DNA from: Amycolatopsis pithecellobii
Lineage (GTDB): Bacteria; Actinomycetota; Actinomycetes; Mycobacteriales; Pseudonocardiaceae
Assembly (NCBI RefSeq): GCF_009707865.1
Contig: NZ_WMBA01000003.1
Coordinates: 62,001-126,000, forward strand
Direction: 5' to 3'
Length of the DNA stretch: 64,000 bases
In this document: positions 8,082-20,381 of the stretch, piece by piece
How positions within the stretch are numbered: position 1 is the first letter of the stretch
Layout of the letters: each line of letters starts with the position of its first letter
Translations under genes and position numbers: made by a program
Notes under the pieces: generated by a model
Told to the model about the DNA's origin: nothing
The model's input: only the letters and a program-made list of their open reading frames with translations
Database searches by the model: none

Positions 8082-8522
8082 ATGATGCAAAACGACGTGG
8101 AATCCGATCTCGGCTGGGCACTGCGCAGGATCTCGACGGCGTTCCGCACCTCCGCCGACGACGCGGTCGGGGTAATTCCCGGTCACGGACGGGGCTATCT
8201 CGTGCTGCTCGCGATCGACGGTGGCGCGGAGCCGTCGCAGGCGGAGATCGCCCACCTGCTGAGGCTGACTCGCACCATGACCACCTACCTGCTGGACGAC
8301 CTCGAACAGCACGGGCTGGTCCAACGGCGGGCGAGCACCCAGGACCGGCGGGTACGGCACGTGTTGCCCACCAGGAAGGGGCGGGCTCTCCTCCGGACCA
8401 CTCGCGCAGCGTTGCGCGAGACGGAGGAGCGCCTGTTTTCTCCCCTCACCGGCGAGGAATCGGAGACCTTGCGAGCGTTGCTCGCCCGCGTCGCGGCGCA
8501 CACCTCCTCCGGAGGTGACTGA
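8082..8522 (+). CDS. MarR-family transcriptional regulator
   Basis: 146 aa winged-helix MarR protein. The DNA-binding core is at about residues 50-100 (PSQAEIAHLLRLTRTMTTYLLDDLEQHGLV followed by the wing RRASTQDRRVRHVLPT). It starts MMQND; ATG 8082 or 8085 are equivalent. It lies in line between two SDR genes and ends 25 bp before the next one, so it may be co-transcribed with the downstream SDR. A dyad sits immediately upstream. Confidence 0.88.
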   Translation: MMQNDVESDLGWALRRISTAFRTSADDAVGVIPGHGRGYLVLLAIDGGAEPSQAEIAHLLRLTRTMTTYLLDDLEQHGLVQRRASTQDRRVRHVLPTRKGRALLRTTRAALRETEERLFSPLTGEESETLRALLARVAAHTSSGGD

Positions 8523-9243: not shown

Positions 9244-9267
9244 GATAAGGCAGGCCGCGCCTTTATC
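9244..9267. terminator. Possible hairpin between convergent genes
   Basis: GATAAGGC pairs with GCCTTTATC with one bulged base, directly after the SDR stop and overlapping the end of the opposing dienelactone hydrolase. There is no strong U tract, so termination activity is uncertain. Confidence 0.3.
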
Positions 9268-9958
9268 CCGTTGTCGGCAAGTGCTTGTCGAGGAACGCGA
9301 ACGTGCGTTCCCACGCGAGGGCGGCCGCGTCGGAGTCGTACCTGGCGGGGCGCGCATCGCAGGCGAAAGCATGTCCCGAGCCGGGGTAGACGTGCTGTTC
9401 CGCGGGGACAGGGAGGCGAGCAAGCGCGGCGTCGATCGCGGCGACCTGGTCCGCCGGGATCGTCGGATCTTCCGACCCGACGTGCACCAGGATCGGCGCG
9501 TCGAGCCGGCCCGCCCGGTCGAGGACGGCGTGCGGGCCGGCCGCGATGCCCGGACCGTAGAACACCACCGTGCCCGCCAGACTGTCGATCGCCGTGGCGG
9601 CGGTGAACGCGGCCCGCCCGCCGAAGCAGAATCCGACGACGGCGACCCGTTCGGCGGGGATCCCGTCCCGCTCGGCGAGGTCCGCTACGACGGCCCGCAC
9701 GTCGGTGACGATCGCGTCGACGCCGATGGCGCCGATCAGCGGCATCGCCTCGGCGTGCTGCTCGTAGCCGAGCACGCCGATTCCGTTGCGGTGAAAGAGA
9801 TCGGGGGCGCACGCGAGGTAGCCGCGTGCGGCGATGCGCCGGGTGACGTCCCGGATGTGGTCGTTCACCCCGAACGCCTCCTGCAGGACGATCACGGCGG
9901 CATCCGCGCCGGCACCCGCCCGGTAGACGTTCATGGGCCCGTCGGCCGTCTCGATCAT
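9263..9958 (-). CDS. Dienelactone hydrolase-family protein
   Basis: 231 aa alpha/beta hydrolase with the DLH nucleophile elbow GFCFGG (Cys), the acid in HVGSEDPTIP, and histidine in GSGHAF, giving the Cys-Asp-His triad. Carboxymethylenebutenolidases hydrolyse lactones from halogenated or substituted catechol cleavage, but many members act on other esters. It starts 12 bp after the pita-bread protein gene ends, so the two form an operon driven from the GTATAC-box region at 11265-11387. This places it in the gentisate regulon. Confidence 0.85.
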   Translation of the reverse strand: MIETADGPMNVYRAGAGADAAVIVLQEAFGVNDHIRDVTRRIAARGYLACAPDLFHRNGIGVLGYEQHAEAMPLIGAIGVDAIVTDVRAVVADLAERDGIPAERVAVVGFCFGGRAAFTAATAIDSLAGTVVFYGPGIAAGPHAVLDRAGRLDAPILVHVGSEDPTIPADQVAAIDAALARLPVPAEQHVYPGSGHAFACDARPARYDSDAAALAWERTFAFLDKHLPTTG

Positions 9959-9970
9959 TGGTGCCTTCCT

Positions 9971-11221
9971 TCAGTTCCCGTCAATGACGATCAGTTCCCG
10001 CTTTCGCGTGCCGAGCCGGCGCGCGCCCGTGTCCGTGACGACGATCGTGTCGCCCCACGTGACGTCGTACTGCCGCGCGAATTCCACCGGCGCTTCCGGT
10101 ACTTGCAGGAAAGGTTTCAGCACGAACGTCGTGTTGGCGACGATCGGTTCGCCGGGCACGTGGGACTTGTCCAGGCCCGGTACGAAAAGCGGGCCGTCGT
10201 TGCCCAGCCCGCGTCCGTGCAGCAACGGGAACATCGTCCCGTCGCCGCTCCCCGCGGCGGCTTCCACGGCGGCGAGGACGTCGCCCCACAGCACACCGGG
10301 TCGCAGCACGGCCAGCGCCGCGTCGAAGGCGGCCGCGTTGCGGTCGAAGATCTCCCGGGCCCTGGCGCACGGCGGGCCGATCACCATGGGTTGCGCGACC
10401 TGCGCCTGGTAGCCGCGAATCTCGGGCATCAGTTCGGTGGAGACGTACGTGCCGCGTTCCAGCAGTCCCGGCGGTGTCGTGACATACCGGTGCCGTGCCT
10501 CGCCCCAGGATCCCGGTGCCCACGCCACTTGCAGTGCGTCCGCGCCGGCCCGCACCTGTGCCAGCAGCATCTGGCCGAAGACCTCTGCCTGCGGCACGCC
10601 GACGCCCGCTGTCGCCGACATCGCCGCCACCGACGCTTCGCCCAGCCGGACACTGGCGGCCAGCCGGGCGACCTCCTCGTCGCCCTTGACGTACCGGGCG
10701 CGACCGAGCAGGCCGGTGCCGTTCACGATGTGCTCGGGGCCGACGGCTTCGGCGATGGTGCGGACGGTGGTGTAGACGGCGTAACCGTCGGGTTGCCGCA
10801 CGGACGACAGCCCGTCGCCGCCAAGGCCGGCGATCGCCGTGCGCCGGCCGACCAGGCCGCGGTTGCGCAGCACATCTGCTGTCGTCCTGCCGTACTCGAC
10901 AGCGCTGGAGCCGCGCTCGGTCGCGCTCATGCTGTCTTCGATCCAGAGCCGTTGCCGGGCGGCGAAATTGCTCGACTCACCGCCGAGGATGAGGATCGGG
11001 TCGCCGTCACGCGGGAAGATCGTCACCCCGGCCGTGTCCGCGATGTAGAGCGAGTCGGACGTGATCGACTCCGGCAGGACGATGAGCAGTTCCACGCCGT
11101 CGGCGTCCATCAGCTCCCGCAGTCGCGCCCACCGTCGATCGCGTTCTTCCCGTGAGAACATCGGCTCGTTGATCGGCGCCGGAATCCCGAGGATGCCCTG
11201 CACTCCGCGTATTCCTTGCAT
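9971..11221 (-). CDS. M24 (pita-bread) family protein without canonical metal ligands
   Basis: 416 aa with the creatinase/aminopeptidase P two-domain layout: an N-terminal domain (about 1-180) and a C-terminal pita-bread domain. Where active metallopeptidases have two Asp in the D...D region, this protein reads STELMPEIRGYQAQVAQP; the final Glu positions also appear replaced (VLKPF, VTDTG). A histidine is kept in LLHGRGLG. Metal-free creatinase works without bound metal, so an amidinohydrolase-like or other hydrolytic role is possible. It heads the minus-strand operon with the dienelactone hydrolase and is divergent from the MHS transporter across two GTATAC boxes. Confidence 0.75.
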   Translation of the reverse strand: MQGIRGVQGILGIPAPINEPMFSREERDRRWARLRELMDADGVELLIVLPESITSDSLYIADTAGVTIFPRDGDPILILGGESSNFAARQRLWIEDSMSATERGSSAVEYGRTTADVLRNRGLVGRRTAIAGLGGDGLSSVRQPDGYAVYTTVRTIAEAVGPEHIVNGTGLLGRARYVKGDEEVARLAASVRLGEASVAAMSATAGVGVPQAEVFGQMLLAQVRAGADALQVAWAPGSWGEARHRYVTTPPGLLERGTYVSTELMPEIRGYQAQVAQPMVIGPPCARAREIFDRNAAAFDAALAVLRPGVLWGDVLAAVEAAAGSGDGTMFPLLHGRGLGNDGPLFVPGLDKSHVPGEPIVANTTFVLKPFLQVPEAPVEFARQYDVTWGDTIVVTDTGARRLGTRKRELIVIDGN

Positions 11222-11264
11222 ACGGTTTGGTCTCCTTGACGAACGCGACGCTTCGCTGATGCTG

Positions 11265-11283
11265 AACTAGTTTGTATACGGAT
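11265..11283. promoter_or_regulatory. GTATAC box A
   Basis: AACTAGTTTGTATACGGAT: left half-site AACTAGT, two bases, core GTATAC. The right half is degenerate. The same 19-base pattern, differing at one base, recurs inverted at box D (19618-19636). It lies 44 bp upstream of the M24-like gene start. Confidence 0.7.
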
Positions 11284-11363
11284 GTGATTGACCATAGCTT
11301 TCGCTGGAAAGCCGGTCAACTCACTATTGCTTGCCATGTTCAGGTCGGGTAGCGTGACACGGC

Positions 11364-11387
11364 AACTAGTCCGTATACCAACGAGTT
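11364..11387. promoter_or_regulatory. GTATAC box B, full dyad
   Basis: A 24-bp dyad centred on GTATAC (11373-11378). Half-sites AACT-n-GT and AC-n-AGTT are symmetrical at every conserved base and separated from the core by two variable bases on each side. It lies 19 bp upstream of the MHS transporter start. It is the most complete copy of the motif and probably the best operator of the tandem MarR. Confidence 0.75.
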
Positions 11388-11405
11388 AGTCCGGAAAGGC
11401 TCGTC

Positions 11406-12812
11406 ATGGGCACTGCAGCGCCAACGGCTGTCGCGCAGAAACGCAACGTGCGAACAGCGGCCGCCTCGGGATTCTTCGGTACCACTCTCGAGTACTACGA
11501 CTTTCTGATCTACGGGACCGCCGCCGCACTGTTCTTCGGCAAGATCTTCTTCCCCGATCCTGCGCTGGGCACGTTGCTGGCGCTGGGTACCTTCGGCGTC
11601 GCCTACGTCGCCCGCCCGTTCGGGGCCGTGGTGTGGGGCCACCTCGGGGACAAGTTCGGCCGCAAGAAGATCCTGCTCGCGATCCTGCTCACCATGGGCG
11701 TCGCCACGTTCCTGGTGGGCTGCATTCCGAGCTATACGGCCATCGGCGCGGCCTCCCCGGTGATCCTGGTGGTGCTCCGCATCATCCAGGGGCTGTCCGC
11801 GGGCGGTGAGCAGACCGGGTCGGCGCTGATCGCCTTCGAGCACGCGCCGGATCGCAAGCGTGCCTTTTACACCAGCTGGACGCAAAGTGGATCGCAGTTC
11901 GGGAATTTCGTGGCCAGTGTGGTGTTCCTGCCGCTGACCGCGCTGCTGCCGAAGGACGCGATGCTCGCCTGGGGATGGCGGATTCCGTTCTGGCTGAGCG
12001 CATTGATCATCGCGATGACGTTCGTGCTGCGGCGCAAGCTCGTCGAGCCGGAGTCCGGCAAGCAGCCGCAGGCGGCGGCGAGGGCCACGGTCCCGCTCGT
12101 CGAGGTGTTCCGCGACCATTGGCGCGCGGTGCTTCGCGTGGTGGTGGGCGGGTTGTGCATCTCGCCGGCCGGTCTGGTCTACGTCTTCGGCTTGTCCTAT
12201 GGCACCAACGTGATCGGGCTGAGCAGGTCGCCGATGCTGATCCTGGTCGCGGGCTCCGCGCTCGGCATGGGCATCACGATCCCGTTCTTCGCGATCCTGT
12301 CCGACCGGATCGGCCGCAAACCCGTGTTCGTCATCGGGCTGGCCGGCTGCATGGCACTGATCCCGGTATGGCTGGGTGCGGTCCACGCGGGCAACTGGAC
12401 GGTGATCTTCCTGGCCGGGTTCGCCCTCATGGACATTTTCCTGGCGATGCCGACAGCCATTCTTCTCGCCGCTTTCCTGGAACTGTTCCCCTCGCATATC
12501 CGGTTCTCCGGGATGGCGATCGGTTTCATGCTGGGCATCGTGCTCACCGGTCTGCTCCCCGCCATCGCCCAGTCCTTCGTCCAAGACGACCCCGGCAACT
12601 GGGGACAGGTCGCCTGGTTGTTCGCAGGCCTGCTTTTCGCCGCCGGGGTGGCGGTGCTGGCCGGCCCGGAAACCTACCGCGTACCGACCCGCGAACTGGG
12701 AGGTGGCTTGGCCGAGCCCTTCCCGACCGCACCTCAGGGGAACGTGACGCAAGCCGGCCACAAGTACGTGACCAAGCCGGACCGTACTTCCACAACGGGA
12801 CCAACCCCATAA
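11406..12812 (+). CDS. MHS-family MFS transporter (aromatic/metabolite:H+ symporter-like)
   Basis: 468 aa with twelve hydrophobic segments and signatures of the metabolite:H+ symporter family (ShiA, ProP, KgtP relatives): GTTLEYYDFLIYG in helix 1, GHLGDKFGRKK in loop 2-3, RIIQGLSAGGEQTG, and SDRIGRKP in loop 8-9. It likely imports the aromatic or carboxylate substrate of the cluster. AAAGG lies seven bases before ATG 11406. It is divergent from the M24-like gene and directly behind GTATAC box B; the DDN-like gene follows after 25 bp. Confidence 0.85.
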   Translation: MGTAAPTAVAQKRNVRTAAASGFFGTTLEYYDFLIYGTAAALFFGKIFFPDPALGTLLALGTFGVAYVARPFGAVVWGHLGDKFGRKKILLAILLTMGVATFLVGCIPSYTAIGAASPVILVVLRIIQGLSAGGEQTGSALIAFEHAPDRKRAFYTSWTQSGSQFGNFVASVVFLPLTALLPKDAMLAWGWRIPFWLSALIIAMTFVLRRKLVEPESGKQPQAAARATVPLVEVFRDHWRAVLRVVVGGLCISPAGLVYVFGLSYGTNVIGLSRSPMLILVAGSALGMGITIPFFAILSDRIGRKPVFVIGLAGCMALIPVWLGAVHAGNWTVIFLAGFALMDIFLAMPTAILLAAFLELFPSHIRFSGMAIGFMLGIVLTGLLPAIAQSFVQDDPGNWGQVAWLFAGLLFAAGVAVLAGPETYRVPTRELGGGLAEPFPTAPQGNVTQAGHKYVTKPDRTSTTGPTP

Positions 12813-12837
12813 ATCCGGGGAGGCGGAGGAGCGTTTC

Positions 12838-13296
12838 ATGACCAAGCAGCTTCGGGATGTGAAGGACCACAAGGACCTGGTGCACGTGCCCAATCTGAAC
12901 GAGCAGGTCATCGACGACTTCCGGGCGAACCAGGGGCGGGTCGGCGGGCCGTATGAGGGTGCCCGGATCATGCTCGTGCACCATGTGGGCGCGAAGACCG
13001 GCGCCCGGCGCGTGACTCCGATGTCGTACTTCCCCCAGGAGGACGGGAGCATGGTCGTGGTCGCCTCCAACCGGGGGGCGAGCACGAATCCCGCCTGGTA
13101 CGTCAACCTGATGGCCCGCCCGCGGACCGATGTCGAGGTCGGTGCCGAGACGTTTTCCGTTGTGGTCGAGGAGATCACCGGGACAGAGCGGGATGCGGTG
13201 TGGGCGGACGTCGTGGCGGTCATCCCCGCCGTGCTCGACTATCAGAAGAAGACGAACCGGACGATCCCACTGCTGCGGCTCACCAGGGTGGACTGA
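12838..13296 (+). CDS. DDN-like F420/flavin-dependent nitroreductase-family protein
   Basis: 152 aa with the split-beta-barrel DDN pattern typical of actinobacteria: HHVGAKTGARRVTPMSYF and NRGASTNPAWYVNLMARP. These proteins bind deazaflavin F420 or related flavins and reduce quinones and other acceptors. GGAGGCGGAGG precedes ATG 12838. Its place behind the transporter and before the double-MarR gene suggests a protective quinone-reductase role, or a reductive step, during hydroxylated-aromatic catabolism; that is inference. Confidence 0.8.
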   Translation: MTKQLRDVKDHKDLVHVPNLNEQVIDDFRANQGRVGGPYEGARIMLVHHVGAKTGARRVTPMSYFPQEDGSMVVVASNRGASTNPAWYVNLMARPRTDVEVGAETFSVVVEEITGTERDAVWADVVAVIPAVLDYQKKTNRTIPLLRLTRVD

Positions 13297-13305
13297 CGTC
13301 GTCGC

Positions 13306-13330
13306 CACTCGTGGGTATACGGAGCATATG
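13306..13330. promoter_or_regulatory. GTATAC box E, upstream of tandem marR
   Basis: ACT-c-GT, two G, then GTATAC at 13315-13320, matching the left half of box B. The right half is weak. It sits 45 bp upstream of the double-MarR start and suggests autoregulation. Confidence 0.55.
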
Positions 13331-13365
13331 CTCGGGGTGCACGCACGTGGAGAGGAGCGCTGCCA

Positions 13366-14292
13366 GTGACGGCCCGAGGTGTTGACCGGCCACCGGATGA
13401 CGTGATCAAGCCGCTGGCGTCGACTCCCGGCTATCTCATCCGGCGTGCCCAGACCGTGCACAACGCGTTATGGGGCGAGCTGGTGCCGGGGGAGCTGACC
13501 GGGCCTCAGTATGCGGTGCTGTCGGTGCTTGCGGCGTTCCCCCACGCCGATCAGCAGCAGGTCGCCACGTTGGCGTCACTGGACAAGTCATCGGCGGCGG
13601 ATGTGGTGGCCCGGTTGGTCCGCAAGGCCTGGATCGACCGGGACCGCAACCCCGAGGACGGCCGCCGCTATCTGCTGTCGCTGACCTCGGCGGCGGCCAT
13701 CGCACTGTCGTCGATCACCCCCAAGGTCATTGCCGTGCAGGAGGCCCTGCTCGCCCCGATATCGGCGGCACGGCGCGCTACTTTCGCGAACCGGCTGGCC
13801 ACCGTCGCCCGATTCTCGGACAGTGAGCTGTGGTTGGGACAGCAGAGCGCTTACCCGGCTCTCGAGCTGACGGCGCCCGGTCACCTGATTCGCCGCGCCC
13901 AGCAGGTGCACACCGCCTACTGGGCCGAGGTCATGGACGGGCAGCTGACCGGCCCGCAGTACGCGGTCCTGCACGCGATCAACCGGTGGCCGGGGATCAA
14001 CCAGCGCAGGCTGGGGGAGCTGGCGGCGCTGGACAAGTCCACGACGACGGACATCGTGAACAGGCTCGCCGGAAAAGGGTGGATCCACCGCGAGCAGGAT
14101 CCGGACGACGGGCGCGGCCGGATCCTCAACCTGACCCGTGACGCGATGACCTGGCTCGTCGACATCCACCCGAAGGTCGGCCTGGTCCAGCAGCGCCTGC
14201 TCGAAGCACTGCGCCCCGACGACCGCGCGAGCTTCGTCCGTGACCTCGCGCGGATGGCGTTCCAGGGCAAACCCCCGGACGCCGCGACCTAA
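13366..14292 (+). CDS. Tandem (double-domain) MarR-family regulator
   Basis: 308 aa made of two MarR units in one chain. PGYLIRRAQTVHNALWGEL at about residue 23 is repeated as PGHLIRRAQQVHTAYWAEV at about residue 168; both are followed by LTGPQYAVL and a complete winged helix (LASLDKSSAADVVARLVRKAW and LAALDKSTTTDIVNRLAGKGW). Normal MarR proteins are about 150 aa and dimerise; here one chain has both halves and can act as a built-in pseudo-dimer. GTG 13366 has GGAGAGGAG upstream. It lies inside the gentisate block and has a GTATAC box in its promoter, so it is the likely controller of boxes A-E. Confidence 0.88.
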   Translation: MTARGVDRPPDDVIKPLASTPGYLIRRAQTVHNALWGELVPGELTGPQYAVLSVLAAFPHADQQQVATLASLDKSSAADVVARLVRKAWIDRDRNPEDGRRYLLSLTSAAAIALSSITPKVIAVQEALLAPISAARRATFANRLATVARFSDSELWLGQQSAYPALELTAPGHLIRRAQQVHTAYWAEVMDGQLTGPQYAVLHAINRWPGINQRRLGELAALDKSTTTDIVNRLAGKGWIHREQDPDDGRGRILNLTRDAMTWLVDIHPKVGLVQQRLLEALRPDDRASFVRDLARMAFQGKPPDAAT

Positions 14293-14294
14293 AC

Positions 14295-15635
14295 TCAGGG
14301 AAGCCGGATCACGCCGGTCTCGCCTTCGATCGTGATCTTCGTGCCGAACGGTTCGGACAGCCGCTGCAGCCGGTGCAGGATCTTGAGCGCGTCCTCGGGC
14401 GACGGCGTTTCCGGGAAACCGCGGTCGGCCAGCCTGCGTTGCTGCCCGAGATCCACCGGATGGAGCCGGAGCTCCGTCAGGTTGTTGTCCCGGAAGCGGG
14501 ATTCGGCGATCACACTCTGATAGACCGTGCTGTCACCCGCGTAGTACGACCACCACTGCTCCCAGTATTCGGCGGCTGTCTGCCGCTTGGCGTCGAAGCC
14601 CTCGGGAGCCGCGTCAGGCAACAGGTCCACCTGTTCGAAACCGCCGAACAGGTCGCCGAGCGAATAGAAAATCGGGCGGCCGCGGTAGATTTCGATGCCC
14701 AGCAACACATGCGGACCGTGGCCGACGACGGCATCCGCACCGTTGTCGATGGCTGCCCTCGCCATGGTGCGCAGGAACTCGGGCGGTTCCTGACTCGGCC
14801 AGGCACTCCCGTCGCCGCTGAGTACCGGATCCGCGGAGCTGGGTTCCTCGTGGTTGTGCACCGAAACCACGACGAAGTTCGCCCGCTGCTTGGCTTCGCG
14901 GATGCTGCGCAGGATATCGATCTCGTCGTCGGGGTTGATCCGGAAGACGGTGCCGGGTTCGTCGCCGACGCGGAACCAGTTCCCCCGGAACCGTAACTCG
15001 TCGCCGTCCGGCGCCGCACCGAACCGGTATCCGCCCGCACTGTGCTGCGCTTCGATCTCCCGCAGTACCTGGAACTGCTCGCGGCTGACGATGTCGATCG
15101 GGGTGGTGTGCAGCGCGCTCACCCCGGGCACGGGCGGGGCGATCCCGAACGGATCCATCGCGGCGTCGCTCTCGCGGAACGTCGCGGTGAACGCGACCAG
15201 CGCGACCCGTCCCTTCGGCGTCGCGAAGAAGGCCGGTGCCCGCGCGGCCGAGCGCGTCTCACCGAAGCCCGCGGATCGGATGCCCGCCGCGTCGAGCAGG
15301 CGAATCGTTTCGCGCGCCCCTTTCGGCCCCCAGTCGCCCGTGTGGTTGTTCGCGAAGCCGACCATGTCGAAACCCCAGTCCTTCAGGAACCGGGGGAGTT
15401 CGACCGGGACGGACACCAGTGGCCAGCCGGCGCCGCCGCCGACCGGTTCATGCCCGGGTGCGCGCAGATCGATGGCCGGACCCTCGAAATTGGCCATCGT
15501 CACGTCGGCGGACCGGAGCACACGCACGAGATCCCGGTTGCGGCCATGGACCGACACCGCGCCCGGCGCGAGGAGGTCGCCCGCGGCCGCCAAGGTGAAA
15601 TCGTCATCGACGTTGGTCGCGATGGACGGTGTCAT
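14295..15635 (-). CDS. CapA-family (PGA_cap) metallophosphatase-like protein, no signal peptide
   Basis: 446 aa with CapA/YwtB motifs: FTLAAAGDLLAPG near residue 15, MANFEGP near 48, GFANNHTGDWG near 95, VVVSVHNHEEP, DAVVGHGPHVLLGIEIYRGRPIFYSLGDL. CapA proteins of poly-gamma-glutamate capsule systems are membrane anchored or exported; this one has no signal peptide or membrane helix and is the last gene of the gentisate operon, 13 bp after the SnoaL-like gene. A cytoplasmic calcineurin-like hydrolase acting on a pathway compound is more likely than capsule synthesis. The reaction is unknown. Confidence 0.8.
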   Translation of the reverse strand: MTPSIATNVDDDFTLAAAGDLLAPGAVSVHGRNRDLVRVLRSADVTMANFEGPAIDLRAPGHEPVGGGAGWPLVSVPVELPRFLKDWGFDMVGFANNHTGDWGPKGARETIRLLDAAGIRSAGFGETRSAARAPAFFATPKGRVALVAFTATFRESDAAMDPFGIAPPVPGVSALHTTPIDIVSREQFQVLREIEAQHSAGGYRFGAAPDGDELRFRGNWFRVGDEPGTVFRINPDDEIDILRSIREAKQRANFVVVSVHNHEEPSSADPVLSGDGSAWPSQEPPEFLRTMARAAIDNGADAVVGHGPHVLLGIEIYRGRPIFYSLGDLFGGFEQVDLLPDAAPEGFDAKRQTAAEYWEQWWSYYAGDSTVYQSVIAESRFRDNNLTELRLHPVDLGQQRRLADRGFPETPSPEDALKILHRLQRLSEPFGTKITIEGETGVIRLP

Positions 15636-15648
15636 GGTGAGACCTCTT

Positions 15649-16284
15649 TCAGGAGAAGAACCAGTGCCGCTGCTCGGAGAACAGCGCCTCGATCAGGTCA
15701 GGCCGGTCGGCGCCGGGCAGGTCCGGTGCGACGGGATGACCCATGTCGCGCAGCAGCACCGCCAGGTGCCGGTAGCTGGGGCGCTGGTCGTGCACCGACC
15801 CGGGAAGGGCCAGTGGTGCGCCGGGCTCGACGGCCGAGATGTTGTCCCGGAAATAGATCATGTCCATCCCCGCGATCAGCCAGCGATCAGCGAGCCGTTC
15901 GGCGCGCCAGCACAGCCGCCCACGGCTGACGACGTCCACGGGCACGTCCTCCAGCGTTCCCCGGATGTGGACCGCGCAACCCGTGTCGGCCAGCGCGCGA
16001 TTCTCACGCACCACAACGGAAATCGCGCCGATCTCGTGGAACGACGGGCTTCCGCCACGGGCGCTGCGGGCGCGGGCACTTTCGACGAAATCGGCGCCAC
16101 TGCCTTGGAACCACGACACGGAGACCCGCGCATCGGGCGCGAACGCCGAGGCCATCAGCTCCCACTGCCCGAGGTCCTTGGCGGTCCGTTCGGCAAGCAG
16201 AACCGTGCGTACCGCGCCAGCCTCCGCCTCCAGACCCGTCTGGTCCGGGAGCCGTGGGTCGAGCAAGACCGCTGTCGTGCACAT
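15649..16284 (-). CDS. SnoaL-like protein with C-terminal extension
   Basis: 211 aa from ATG 16284 (MCTTAVLLDPRLPDQTGL), four bases after the FAH-family stop. The NTF2-like fold is seen in AVRTVLLAERTAKDLGQWELMA, DARVSVSWFQG and FHEIGAISVVVRENRA; the last 45 residues extend beyond a standard SnoaL domain. Similar proteins occur in aromatic-degradation operons, with roles as isomerases or accessory proteins. Tight packing in the gentisate operon suggests it acts on an intermediate, possibly supplying the isomerase step that is otherwise missing; this is a guess. Confidence 0.75.
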   Translation of the reverse strand: MCTTAVLLDPRLPDQTGLEAEAGAVRTVLLAERTAKDLGQWELMASAFAPDARVSVSWFQGSGADFVESARARSARGGSPSFHEIGAISVVVRENRALADTGCAVHIRGTLEDVPVDVVSRGRLCWRAERLADRWLIAGMDMIYFRDNISAVEPGAPLALPGSVHDQRPSYRHLAVLLRDMGHPVAPDLPGADRPDLIEALFSEQRHWFFS

Positions 16285-16288
16285 GGTT

Positions 16289-17194
16289 TCAGCCGCGCTC
16301 GGCGACCGGGGTGAGCTCGGCCGGGGGCTTCGGCCCGTGGCCGGCACCGAGCGTCGGGCAGGCCACCGCGCCCGCATTCGACACCGTGACGGCGAGCCGG
16401 TCCAGCCCGGTCACCTCGACCTCGATCCGGTCCCCGTCGTAAACCTCCCCGACGCCTTCGGGGGTTCCGGTGGTGACGATGTCGCCGGGATTCAGCGTCA
16501 TCACCGACGACACATAGGCGATGAGTTTGGGAAGGCTCCAGATCAGATCCTTGAGGTCCGCGCGCTGGCGTAGCGCGCCGTTGACCCACAGGTGCAGTTC
16601 CAGCTCGTCGATCGGCGGCACATCGGCCGGGCTGACCAGCGTGGGCCCGGTCGGCGTGAAGGTATCGAAGGACTTGCGGACGGAACGATCCTCACCGCCG
16701 CGCATCGTCATGTCGAGCAGGCAGGTATAGCCGAATACGTGGTCGAGCGCGTCCACTTCGGACACATGGCGTGCGGTTTTCCCGATCACCGCGGCGAATT
16801 CGCCTTCCTGATCGAACCGGCGATCGTGGTAGGGCAGGGTGACCACCGCGCCAGGGCCGGCCACCGAGGACGGTGCCTTGAGGAACACGCCGAGCGAGTC
16901 GATATGGCTGGCCTGCTGCATTTCGCTCTGGTGGTTGCGGTAGTTGACCGGCGCCGCGACGACCTTCGTCGGATCAGGTACCGGTGCGGTGACGGTGATG
17001 CCGCCCGAGTCGAGGACCGGAGCGCGGCCCAGGATCTCCCCGATGTCCAGCCCGGCCGCGATGAGCCGTCGCATCGGCGACCCCTCGCCGGGTGGCAGCA
17101 GGTCGGTGACGTCATGGACTTTTCCGGGTGCGTCCGGGTCGAGGACACCGGCCCGGATCGCGCCGGTGGTGTCACGGAAGCTCAGATAACGCAT
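16289..17194 (-). CDS. Fumarylacetoacetate hydrolase-family enzyme (gentisate route)
   Basis: 301 aa with FAH-domain metal ligands in DQEGEFAAVIGK (E-x-E) and FGYTCLLDMTMRGG (Asp), followed by TPTGPTLVS and IVTTGTPEGVG. In gentisate pathways FAH-family hydrolases cleave maleylpyruvate or fumarylpyruvate into pyruvate plus maleate or fumarate. ATG 17194 has AGGAG upstream. It lies 16 bp behind the FAD hydroxylase gene. No maleylpyruvate isomerase is seen, so it may act directly on maleylpyruvate, or the isomerase lies elsewhere. Confidence 0.85.
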   Translation of the reverse strand: MRYLSFRDTTGAIRAGVLDPDAPGKVHDVTDLLPPGEGSPMRRLIAAGLDIGEILGRAPVLDSGGITVTAPVPDPTKVVAAPVNYRNHQSEMQQASHIDSLGVFLKAPSSVAGPGAVVTLPYHDRRFDQEGEFAAVIGKTARHVSEVDALDHVFGYTCLLDMTMRGGEDRSVRKSFDTFTPTGPTLVSPADVPPIDELELHLWVNGALRQRADLKDLIWSLPKLIAYVSSVMTLNPGDIVTTGTPEGVGEVYDGDRIEVEVTGLDRLAVTVSNAGAVACPTLGAGHGPKPPAELTPVAERG

Positions 17195-17210
17195 GCGATC
17201 TCCTGAGAGT

Positions 17211-18440
17211 TCAAACGGTGGCAGCGGTGGCGGTGAGTCCCGGCGCCGCGGTTCCGGGTTCCGCCGGGGCGTAGAGCCAGTCGACGTCGCCGTAGTCGTC
17301 CGCCGCCCGGACGGCGAACAGCCGGTTGCGCACCGCGAGCAGTAACGGGTCGGCGGTGTGCCACAGCTCTCCCCATGGGCGCGCGCTGGTCTGGCACCGG
17401 GCGGTACGGGGGAGCCGGGCGGCCTCGAATTCCCGGTACGCGCCATCGATGTCGGTGTCGTTGCGTTCGAGCCGGTACCCGATCTCCACGGCGTCCTCGA
17501 GCGCCTGACAGGCGCCCTGCCCCAGATACTGCAACATCGGGTGCGCCGCGTCCCCGGTCAGCACCAGCCGCCCGGTGATCCACGTGCCGGCCGGGCTCCG
17601 GTCGTACATCGCCCAGAACCGATCCCGTCTGATCCGCGCGACCGCGTCCCGCACGGGCCGGCACGAGCCGGCGAACGCGGCGTCGAGCTCGTCGGGACCG
17701 CCCCACTCGCCCTGCCCGGTCTGTCCTAAGTGGAATTTTTCGCTGCGGAAGACCGCGACCTGGTTGTACAGTTCGCCGCGGCGCACCGGGTACTGGATGA
17801 GATGCACGCCAGGACCGACCCACAACACGACGTCGTCCGGCGCGATGGCATGCGAGACCTCTTCGATGGGCATCGTCCCGCGGTATGCGGCGTATCCGCT
17901 GCACCTCGCCGCGTCCTCGATGACGTGGCGCCGCAGGGTGGAATGCAGCCCGTCGGCCGCGATCAGGGCAGGCGTCTCATAGCGCGATCCGTCCGCGCAG
18001 ACGACGGTGGCGCCGTCCGGCCGCACCTGAGCGTCGACGACGGTTCGCCTGTTTTCCAGCGTGATGAGGTCATGAGCGCGGCAGTGCGCGAGCAGGACGT
18101 CGAGCAGGTCACTCCGGTGCAGGACGAGGTAGGGATAACCGTAGCGGCGACGGAATTTCTCACCCAGTTCCAGTGTGGTGAGCGGCGTTCCGGCCTGCGC
18201 GTCCATCATCACCGCCCTTGCCGGCTGCACCGCCAGCGGCAGGATGTCGTCCAGGACTCCCAGCGCGTCCAGCGCCCGGCTCGCGTTGGGGCCGAACTGA
18301 AGTCCCGCGCCGATCTCGGCGAATTCCCCGGCCCGTTCGAGGAGATGCACGCTACGCCCGGCCCGCGCGATCGACAGCGCCGTGGCCAGCCCGCCGATTC
18401 CGCCGCCGACGATCAGGGTCGAGACTTTCGTCGTGCTCAT
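17211..18440 (-). CDS. FAD-dependent aromatic hydroxylase, 3-hydroxybenzoate 6-hydroxylase-like
   Basis: 409 aa class A flavin monooxygenase: GGGIGGLATALSIARAG at the N-terminus (ADP binding), an AADGLHSTLRR segment (DG motif, about residue 160), and LTGDAAHPMLQYLGQGACQALEDA (GD motif, about residue 295). These enzymes use NAD(P)H and O2 to hydroxylate phenolic acids. The gene overlaps the gentisate dioxygenase by four bases (ATGA), so its product is expected to be gentisate. 3-Hydroxybenzoate 6-hydroxylase is the best fit; a salicylate 5-type or amide/ester-derived substrate cannot be excluded. Confidence 0.85.
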   Translation of the reverse strand: MSTTKVSTLIVGGGIGGLATALSIARAGRSVHLLERAGEFAEIGAGLQFGPNASRALDALGVLDDILPLAVQPARAVMMDAQAGTPLTTLELGEKFRRRYGYPYLVLHRSDLLDVLLAHCRAHDLITLENRRTVVDAQVRPDGATVVCADGSRYETPALIAADGLHSTLRRHVIEDAARCSGYAAYRGTMPIEEVSHAIAPDDVVLWVGPGVHLIQYPVRRGELYNQVAVFRSEKFHLGQTGQGEWGGPDELDAAFAGSCRPVRDAVARIRRDRFWAMYDRSPAGTWITGRLVLTGDAAHPMLQYLGQGACQALEDAVEIGYRLERNDTDIDGAYREFEAARLPRTARCQTSARPWGELWHTADPLLLAVRNRLFAVRAADDYGDVDWLYAPAEPGTAAPGLTATAATV

Positions 18441-19492
18441 GCGTCCGCTCCCAGGAGTTCCCGGTACAGTCCGAGAGCTTCCAGAACGGGTGCGTCGCTC
18501 GTGCTGAACAGGTCGATTTCGCGGTCCGCCTCGATCGACCACGGGGTCCAGGACGGGATCGCGACGATGTCGCCCGGTTCCACGTCGTAGGTCTGGTCGC
18601 CGACCCGCAGCCGGCCGTTCCCGTGCAGCACCGTGGCGACGCGGCCGCCCGTCTGCCGGGCCGTTCCGGTCCGGGCGCCGGTCCGCACGCGCTCGATCTC
18701 ACACCGCATTGTCGGCATGACATCGCCACCACGGACGGGATCGGTGTAGCGGATGCGCGCGTGAGCGGTGCCGGTCGCCTGAAGCTGCGCGGTGAGCGCC
18801 CGATCGGTGTCCGCCCAGCGGTAGGCCAGCAGGGGAGAGCGATGCGGCGGCAGGGGCGGGCCCCCGACGGGAGCGAGGCCGGGGCCCGCGCCGTACCAGC
18901 GTTCCGACGCCGAGCGATCGGCCACCGAGGTGTCGGCCGCTTCCGATGGTCCTTCTTCGAAGAACACGGCATCGAGGGCGGCGACGACCGGCAGGTCCAG
19001 TACATCCATCCAGATCATCGGCTGATCGGTCGGGTTGTGGTGCTCGTGGAAGGTCCAGCTCGGGGTGAGGATGAGGTCGCCGGTTCCCATGTGCAGGGGG
19101 TCGCCGTCGACGAGGGTGAACACCCCGCTCCCTTCGATGATGAAGCGCAGCGCGGCCGGGGTGTGGCGGTGGGCCGGTGCGACCTCGTGGCCGTTCAAAA
19201 ACTGGACGGCGGCCCAGAGCGTGGAGACCGCATAAGGGGCTCCGCCGAGTCCCGGGTTGCAGCAGGCCAGCACACGCCGGTCCCCGCCGCGATCCACCGG
19301 GACGAGATCACCGGCGCGGGCACCCAGCTCGCGAAGTTCCTTACCCGGCCAGCGATGGGGGACACCCCGGACCGCCGGTTCGGGAGTCAGCAGGCCCTTC
19401 AGCTCCCAGAGCGGTTGCAGGCCTCCCTCGGAGAGCTGCTGGTACAGGACATCGAGTTCCGGGTCCTTCGCCTCGAAGCGCGTCGTCGCCAT
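18437..19492 (-). CDS. Gentisate 1,2-dioxygenase (bicupin)
   Basis: About 351 aa. The N-terminal cupin carries the iron ligands in APAHRHTPAALRF (His about 108 and 110) and FHEHHN (about 149-152), as in gentisate/1-hydroxy-2-naphthoate dioxygenases, and the C-terminal cupin follows (VATVLHGNGRLRVGDQTYDVEPGDIVAIPSW). It opens the gentisate ring to maleylpyruvate using Fe(II) and O2. ATG 19492 is preferred over GTG 19498 because CGGAG lies five bases upstream. It is the first gene of a five-gene minus-strand operon with GTATAC box C in its promoter. Confidence 0.9.
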   Translation of the reverse strand: MATTRFEAKDPELDVLYQQLSEGGLQPLWELKGLLTPEPAVRGVPHRWPGKELRELGARAGDLVPVDRGGDRRVLACCNPGLGGAPYAVSTLWAAVQFLNGHEVAPAHRHTPAALRFIIEGSGVFTLVDGDPLHMGTGDLILTPSWTFHEHHNPTDQPMIWMDVLDLPVVAALDAVFFEEGPSEAADTSVADRSASERWYGAGPGLAPVGGPPLPPHRSPLLAYRWADTDRALTAQLQATGTAHARIRYTDPVRGGDVMPTMRCEIERVRTGARTGTARQTGGRVATVLHGNGRLRVGDQTYDVEPGDIVAIPSWTPWSIEADREIDLFSTSDAPVLEALGLYRELLGADA

Positions 19493-19515
19493 CTCCACTC
19501 CGATCGGGCGGCTTA

Positions 19516-19535
19516 ATAGTAAGTATACGGACTAT
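19516..19535. promoter_or_regulatory. GTATAC box C
   Basis: A perfect 20-bp dyad: ATAGT, two bases, GTATAC (19523-19528), two bases, ACTAT. It lies 23 bp upstream of the gentisate dioxygenase start on the minus strand and matches the box B pattern with slightly shifted outer bases. Confidence 0.7.
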
Positions 19536-19615
19536 CTGTGTCGGCACGTTACCGCACGCGCGCGCTACGAGCAACCGATGGTTGACGAGGTGCTTGCCGG
19601 ACATTATCGTCCATC

Positions 19616-19636
19616 AAATCCGTATACGAACTAGTT
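19616..19636. promoter_or_regulatory. GTATAC box D
   Basis: Core GTATAC at 19622-19627 followed by GA and the half-site ACTAGTT. Read on the opposite strand it is AACTAGTTCGTATACGGAT, identical to box A except for one base. It lies 22 bp upstream of the alpha/beta hydrolase start. Confidence 0.7.
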
Positions 19637-19658
19637 TACCCTCAAGGGCGAGGTACCC

Positions 19659-20381
19659 ATGTCGACGTATCTGTTGGTACACGGTGCCTGGCACACCGGA
19701 CAGTGCTGGGAACGGGTGGTCCCGTTCCTGGCCTCGGCCGGACATCGGGTGGCAACCCCGACGCTGACCGGCTACGGCGACAAGGCGCACCTGCTCAGTC
19801 CCGAGGTGGGGATCGGCACGCACGTCGATGACGTCGTCCGGCTGATCGCCGAGGAGGACCTCACCGAGGTGATCCTCGTCGGGCACAGTTATGCCGGGCT
19901 GGTCATTTCCTCGGTCGCCAACCGGATTCCGGACCGGATCGCGCATCTGGTCTACCTCGACGCCATGGTCCCGGAAGACGGGGAAAGCGCGGCCGACATC
20001 CTGCCCGTCACGCAGGTGCTCATCGACCAGGCGCTGAACTCCGAGAGCGGCTGGCGGATTCCGCCGCTTCCCGAGATGCCGCCGCCGTTCGGGCTGTTCG
20101 GGGTGACCGACCCGGCCGACGTCGCGTGGCTGCGCGCGACGCTGTCGGATCAGCCGGTGCGCTGTGTCCAGGATCGGGTCCGGCTGGACAACCCGGCGAT
20201 GAACAAGATCCCGCGCACGCACATCCACTGCACCCTCGTGCCGGACGGCTTCGACCGGCGGCCCGTCCCCGCGACGCAACCCAACGGTTCGCCGGCACAG
20301 GTGCAGGAACTGCCGACCGGGCACGACTGCATGGTCACCATGCCACGCGAACTCGCCGGACTGCTGCTCAAGCTCGGCTGA
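19659..20381 (+). CDS. Alpha/beta hydrolase, MenH/esterase-like
   Basis: 240 aa, starting MSTYLLVHGAWHTGQCWERV, with the oxyanion-hole HGAWH motif, nucleophile elbow GHSYAG (Ser about 80), Asp in the late strand region and His in PTGHDCM near 222. The family resembles plant salicylate esterases/hydroxynitrile lyases and bacterial MenH-like hydrolases. It is divergent from the gentisate operon and carries box D in its promoter, so hydrolysis of an ester or amide precursor of hydroxybenzoate is a reasonable inference. It ends 22 bp from the convergent amidohydrolase. Confidence 0.82.
   Translation: MSTYLLVHGAWHTGQCWERVVPFLASAGHRVATPTLTGYGDKAHLLSPEVGIGTHVDDVVRLIAEEDLTEVILVGHSYAGLVISSVANRIPDRIAHLVYLDAMVPEDGESAADILPVTQVLIDQALNSESGWRIPPLPEMPPPFGLFGVTDPADVAWLRATLSDQPVRCVQDRVRLDNPAMNKIPRTHIHCTLVPDGFDRRPVPATQPNGSPAQVQELPTGHDCMVTMPRELAGLLLKLG

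Follow-up and report, generated by a model that had tools for sequence, protein, structure and literature searches.

The 64,000-nucleotide stretch of Amycolatopsis pithecellobii DNA analysed here (the window; contig NZ_WMBA01000003.1, positions 62,001 to 126,000) holds a gentisate-type gene cluster of five transcription units, each preceded by a box built around GTATAC. Why does the same box stand before all five units, and which protein recognises it? We consider it roughly 80% probable that the boxes are operators of a protein encoded within the cluster itself, a regulator that carries two MarR domains in one chain. The boxes and this regulator are located as follows.

11265-11288, minus strand: box A, putative operator of the unit encoding an M24-like and a dienelactone-hydrolase-like (DLH) protein; the 24-bp frame reads AACTAGTTTGTATACGGATGTGAT on the plus strand
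11364-11387, plus strand: box B, putative operator of the MHS/DDN unit; AACTAGTCCGTATACCAACGAGTT
13306-13329, plus strand: box E, putative operator of the tandem MarR gene itself; CACTCGTGGGTATACGGAGCATAT
19514-19537, minus strand: box C, putative operator of the gentisate-type operon; TAATAGTAAGTATACGGACTATCT on the plus strand
19613-19636, plus strand: box D, putative operator of the alpha/beta hydrolase gene; ATCAAATCCGTATACGAACTAGTT
13366-14292, plus strand: tandem MarR regulator, the proposed controller; a single 308-aa chain with two MarR domains

The five boxes have been found at the positions where a sequence-only reading of the window had placed them, one per predicted promoter, with the GTATAC cores starting at 11274, 11373, 13315, 19523 and 19622. 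As that reading had also claimed, box A (11265-11283) differs from the reverse complement of D at a single base in 19; B and C, described there as full dyads, have proved to be dyads of near-complete symmetry only. GTATAC occurs six times in the window against 1.29 expected, a count reached in none of 100 shuffles of the 64 kb, and the sixth copy (29578) has no TAGT or ACT-n-GT half-sites. In the 7.9 Mb genome the exact half-site TAGTNNGTATAC has been observed six times; boxes A-D account for five of these (C carries it on both strands) and a second contig (C59) for one, box E being one base off (TCGT). The longer pattern ACTNGTNNGTATACNNAC at up to one mismatch has given six genome-wide matches, every one of them in the cluster and together covering all five boxes. 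At two mismatches no genome-wide enrichment of this pattern is left (27 matches against 23 for the reversed control), and the 10-base half-site pattern shows none at one mismatch (24 against 63). When these 24 are ranked by score, the top nine places go to the known boxes and the C59 pair, the remaining 15 scoring at most 14.6; 13 of the 15 lie inside frames of at least 120 aa, which is little informative since most known boxes do likewise. The genome-wide motif search proposed along with the boxes has thus been run, and many unrelated copies have not been seen at the stringency that recovers the boxes.

Among 389 other genomes of the family, 16 encode relatives of the tandem MarR protein at an E value of 1e-30 or lower, and 17 loci have been cut around them, one genome supplying two. 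The 24-bp pattern recurs in relatives whose regulators are 42-48% identical. The nearest relative (L058) retains the cluster; the cores of its boxes A-D are exact, and equivalents of box E stand ahead of the regulator in L058 (GTATGC), in L059 (GTATAC, 50 bp away, where of the queried cluster genes the regulator alone is kept) and, weaker, in L060 (GTGTAC). A matrix was built from the window boxes alone and tested on 14 more distant, held-out loci. In nine of them its top site lies no more than 300 bp upstream of the regulator or dioxygenase gene, where position alone would give 0.5; permuted matrices have given a mean of 1.6 of 14, and 2 of 500 reached nine. A box lies 88 bp ahead of the hydroxylase gene in L061, one of the two best sites of L063 falls where a Rieske oxygenase frame begins, its product being VanA-like, and the other 58 bp before a transporter gene, and a weaker site lies ahead of a transporter gene in L062. 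The A. acididurans locus (L060:4834-8983) has two boxes, 34 bp apart, before a unit that opens with a LigM/DesA-like folate-dependent O-demethylase (DesA 487 bits, LigM 460 bits, under the cut-offs of 800 and 580), includes FolD- and MTHFR-like proteins and continues on the same strand with the dioxygenase, the hydroxylase and a fumarylacetoacetate-hydrolase family (FAH) protein. A palindrome search across the family has matched 19 of 390 genomes, seven of them among the 17 with a tandem MarR (MarR within the 3-kb locus in six; the site of the own genome is box C), and the reversed control matched 13 genomes by the analyst's count. Among the matched genomes that have no tandem MarR, three carry a single-domain MarR in the locus, and nine have no match there to a window protein.

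Several observations weigh against reading the boxes as operators of the tandem MarR protein. Although linkage speaks for it in most of its 17 loci, of which 11 contain the dioxygenase and two the hydroxylase only, four have neither, one of them at a contig end. Two loci (L069 and L073) have weak sites only, scoring at best 10.4 and 8.6, and the boxes vary, so that a lone matrix match is not proof. At one mismatch the palindrome search has found no match in 10 of the 17 tandem-MarR genomes, and 12 genomes that have no tandem MarR are matched nonetheless. An AlphaFold model computed from two sequences was unusable at a pLDDT (predicted local distance difference test) of 38 and has been dropped.

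In the regulator itself Pfam finds the MarR winged helix twice, both stretches scoring above the gathering threshold, and its N and C halves are 48% identical; where MarR regulators otherwise work as dimers with one domain per chain, both domains lie here in one chain of 308 aa. The closest solved relative of one half is PcaV (4fht, E 2.4e-25), and the best NCBIfam match, BagL/FevM (NF041230, 106 bits), stays below its curated cut-off of 230. In an alignment of 17 proteins the recognition helices show little or no variation in either half, and the same is true of the residues equivalent to PcaV Arg15, His21, Trp25 and Tyr38. In the tree, N and C halves cluster together apart from single domains (99/94), with poorly resolved N/C branching, except for the halves of L061, which pair with each other (95/80) away from the other tandem halves; because of this pairing, fusion may have occurred more than once, independently in L061. 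A phylum-wide search of 396 genomes, with six candidates scored per genome, has returned 12 matches at 1e-35, all except the own genome over one half only. Text searches in open papers, which are weak evidence, have found no description of a fused or tandem MarR regulator, and none of such a regulator for gentisate pathways; the one-chain fused regulator is counted among the new points of this analysis, together with the unmirrored core flanks of its sites and the layout common to two divergent promoter pairs.

From the sequences we infer binding, repression, inducer and one chain per box. One chain, with its two PcaV/HosA-like winged-helix domains, would probably act as a built-in dimer on a single box of 18-24 bp. 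In the absence of inducer the protein would occupy the predicted starts (A-D) or the -10 (E) and block 11 genes including its own; an aromatic acid of the pathway would fill a pocket in each half, the protein would be released, and all five promoters would come on together. The likeliest candidates are 3-hydroxybenzoate and gentisate: the boxed O-demethylase and Rieske genes of the relatives, taken with the Rhodococcus ruber route from 3-methoxybenzoate through 3-hydroxybenzoate to gentisate (PMC9867520), point to one of these as the shared inducer.

The alternative that survives best, though unlikely, is that the boxes are bound by another regulator. This could be the single-domain MarR at 8082-8522, encoded 0.7 kb away from the cluster, or a protein not linked to it, such as one of GntR type. 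GTATAC by itself is not diagnostic, and GntR-type regulators too favour GTATAC-like cores. However, none of the 17 relative loci, not even L058 with the whole cluster, contains a match to the single-domain MarR at E 1e-8, and the sites recur next to tandem MarR genes and related single-domain MarR genes. One regulon under the tandem MarR as single controller, as the sequence-only reading had proposed, is supported by the specificity within the own genome, by the relatives' sites beside tandem-MarR genes, by the lack of matches to the single-domain rival in those 17 loci and by the like core before single-domain MarR relatives.

A second alternative, less probable again, keeps the tandem MarR at the boxes and makes it an activator, as is known for some MarR proteins (AcsR paper, PMC13118786). 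The predicted promoters bear on this choice; those from the consensus scan are not proof of function.

11291-11319, minus strand: predicted promoter of the M24/DLH unit, TTGACC-17-TATGGT; consensus scan
11327-11355, plus strand: possible promoter of the MHS/DDN unit, TTGCTT-17-TAGCGT; by eye, under the scan threshold
13293-13321, plus strand: possible promoter of the tandem MarR gene, CTGACG-17-TATACG; by eye, with the -10 inside box E
19546-19574, minus strand: possible promoter of the gentisate-type operon, TTGCTC-17-TAACGT; by eye, under the scan threshold
19582-19610, plus strand: predicted promoter of the alpha/beta hydrolase gene, TTGACG-17-TATCGT; consensus scan

The predicted starts of A-D fall within the boxes or just ahead of them, and the possible -10 of E lies inside its box, which is the placement expected for a repressor and argues against activation. 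A third possibility, that the boxes belong to the promoters themselves or are AT-rich palindromes arisen by chance, is very improbable. They do lie in promoter DNA richer in AT, and at two mismatches the pattern is not enriched over its reversed control, but all exact half-site matches in 7.9 Mb belong to the cluster or the C59 pair and the 24-bp pattern persists in relatives at 42-48% regulator identity.

For boxes read as operators of the tandem MarR, the promoters also reveal a layout that the sequence-only reading had not mentioned. A-B and C-D are both spaced by 99 bp, and in both divergent regions the promoters stand back to back, with -35 hexamers 7 bp apart; the spacings of 101 and 100 in L058 show that 99 bp is not strict. 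The promoters of B, C and E are weaker than those of A and D. Between the boxes, 37 of 73 bases agree ungapped between AB and the reverse complement of CD (null 18.9; 0 of 20000 shuffles), the gapped score is weaker (equalled by 27 of 2000 shuffles), and the agreement concentrates in the promoter hexamers (20 of 24 bases, a figure that is partly circular because the hexamers were picked by eye), the other bases giving 17 of 49 (null 13.4, p 0.16). An origin of one divergent promoter region by duplication has been considered and set aside; what the comparison shows is a layout common to both.

The genes behind the boxes form five units, M24/DLH, MHS/DDN, tandem MarR, the gentisate-type operon (dioxygenase, flavin hydroxylase, FAH, SnoaL, CapA) and the alpha/beta hydrolase.

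9263-9958, minus strand: dienelactone-hydrolase-like protein (unit A)
9971-11221, minus strand: M24-like protein (unit A)
11406-12812, plus strand: MHS-type MFS transporter (unit B)
12838-13296, plus strand: DDN-like F420-dependent oxidoreductase (unit B)
14295-15635, minus strand: CapA/PGA_cap-like protein (last gene of unit C)
15649-16284, minus strand: SnoaL-like protein (unit C); start chosen by the analyst
16289-17194, minus strand: FAH protein (unit C); start chosen by the analyst
17211-18440, minus strand: flavin hydroxylase like 3-hydroxybenzoate 6-hydroxylase (unit C)
18437-19498, minus strand: gentisate 1,2-dioxygenase-like cupin (first gene of unit C)
19659-20381, plus strand: alpha/beta hydrolase (unit D)

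The flavin hydroxylase scores 383 bits with the NCBIfam model of 3-hydroxybenzoate 6-hydroxylase, the best of 61 models and below the curated cut-off of 459, and the cupin reaches 266 bits with gentisate 1,2-dioxygenase (TIGR02272, curated cut-off 442) and 219 with the 5-aminosalicylate dioxygenase model (cut-off 650). Among the operon proteins (14295-19498) no maleylpyruvate isomerase has been recognised; because of this and of the dioxygenase score under the gentisate cut-off, the ring substrate may be a substituted gentisate. Contigs C52, C98 and C56 of the same genome encode three more paralogues of the dioxygenase, with 45-48% identity to the window protein. The CapA-like protein (14295-15635) that closes the dioxygenase operon has the lasso-peptide epimerase MslH as its best NCBIfam match, at 237 bits against a cut-off of 700.

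On contig C59 the exact TAGTNNGTATAC site is paired with AATTGATACGTATACGCTCTATTA 93 bp away, and in this region (L125, 87-5152) the box pair separates a divergent FMN-reductase/P450-ferredoxin pair from a flavin hydroxylase gene, followed by one for a ferredoxin reductase. The hydroxylase is 72% identical to that of the window. From this arrangement the regulon probably reaches these four genes in trans, and the region is possibly a second input module of it. The figure of about twelve genes given by the sequence-only reading is replaced by 11 behind the five boxes, plus probably four on C59, as one regulon. The P450-ferredoxin is itself a fusion.

The boxes of tandem regulators differ from those of single-domain relatives in symmetry. 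The three bases flanking the core are mirrored in 20 of 23 single-domain sites against 3 of 36 tandem sites (Fisher 9e-10, overstated since the sites are related), and the outer halves are alike in symmetry in both groups. The single-domain sites were kept only at scores of at least 15 (23 of 32 loci), many of them from one clade, and the tandem sites were chosen by score and place, the weaker ones being omitted. Among 34 tandem sites, TCC stands on exactly one side in 25, on neither in nine and on both in none (permutation p 0.001; without L058, one-sided in 20 of 29, p 0.005), a pattern spotted on part of the sites before testing; the 17 sites outside that part, ten with one TCC and seven with none, are not significant alone (about 0.15, by hand). 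One of five omitted tandem sites that have been checked (L064:8085) has TCC on both sides, which weighs slightly against a directional reading. The loss of the mirror fits a fused pair whose 48%-identical halves have drifted apart. Tentatively, and with the odds somewhat against it, the tandem proteins may represent a natural single-chain MarR group that has left two-fold symmetry, with one half-operator TCC-GTA and a different triplet in the other half, and hence a directional operator. In our samples this group occurs in one actinobacterial family only. If the suggestion is true, a directional operator would insulate a gentisate/methoxybenzoate regulon with several promoters from the HosA- and PcaV-type operators of the same cells. 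The boxes would in any case supply a precise putative operator for fused MarR regulators and a natural experiment in how fusion releases a dimeric repressor from palindromic DNA; the regulon of these regulators, here and in related genomes, touches oxygenases and O-demethylases of varied kinds (folate-dependent, Rieske, P450), and a possible use is as a hydroxybenzoate biosensor part.

How does this system compare with known ones? As HosA/PcaV-type operator we have taken a palindrome with the core CGTATACG (HosA-like) or CAGTGnnCTG (PcaV-like) and TAGT-like outer halves. Judged from sequence, the operator of the window is most likely of this type and not a wholly new motif, its core matching that of an established MarR group, because single-domain MarR relatives and the hosA loci of E. 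coli and Klebsiella hold a closely similar core; outer halves and GTATAC are common to both, and the core-adjacent bases are not mirrored in the tandem group. Among single-domain relatives across the phylum (L096-L106, by inference from Streptomyces), the best sites are PcaV-like in 8 of 11 loci, with scores of 8 to 20, and one of them (L100) includes 20 bases of the PcaV probe published in PMC6882365. In three further loci (L087, L089, L092) single-domain MarR genes adjoin VdcB/UbiX-type genes and have GTATAC-like boxes, the VdcB cut-off being reached by one of the three. A search with the L092 protein matches 46 of 386 genomes, and 21 of the 30 loci listed have a site scoring at least 15, mostly TTCGTATACGAA. 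In L089 (759-1499) a single frame combines a match to the N part of VdcB with one to the middle of VdcC, which suggests a fusion or an internal deletion of the decarboxylase genes.

HosA of E. coli and the MarR regulators of vdc (hydroxyarylic acid decarboxylase) clusters resemble the tandem protein in a MarR fold related to each of its halves (8aga, E 1.1e-12) and in a palindrome with the core TTCGTRYACGAA, present as TTCGTACACGAA at the E. coli hosA locus and as TTCGTGTACGAA, with a GTATAC site, at the Klebsiella locus; the same matrix scan has found no such site at the Rahnella locus. The HosA site is TTCGTATACGAACA; a text search for its core has returned no relevant paper. Unlike the tandem MarR, these regulators have a single domain and mirrored core flanks, and they control a decarboxylase operon (annotated in Klebsiella) and no gentisate route. 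Their effector is a hydroxybenzoate, as we suggest for the tandem MarR, namely 4-hydroxybenzoic acid (4-HBA; PMC6261655).

PcaV of Streptomyces coelicolor is a repressor of aromatic catabolism, hydroxybenzoic acids bring about its release, and its His21, Trp25 and Tyr38 pocket positions are retained in the tandem MarR, as are similar outer halves in the boxes. In contrast to the tandem protein, it is described as a homodimer of single domains (34 kDa) acting on the protocatechuate pathway, and its core is CAGTGnnCTG instead of CGTATACG. The BagL/FevM-type MarR is nearest by NCBIfam score, yet its model is of a single domain and its cut-off is missed. GenR of Corynebacterium glutamicum (PMC13118786) governs an actinobacterial 3-hydroxybenzoate/gentisate pathway as we propose for the tandem MarR, but belongs to the IclR family and is described as triggering expression.

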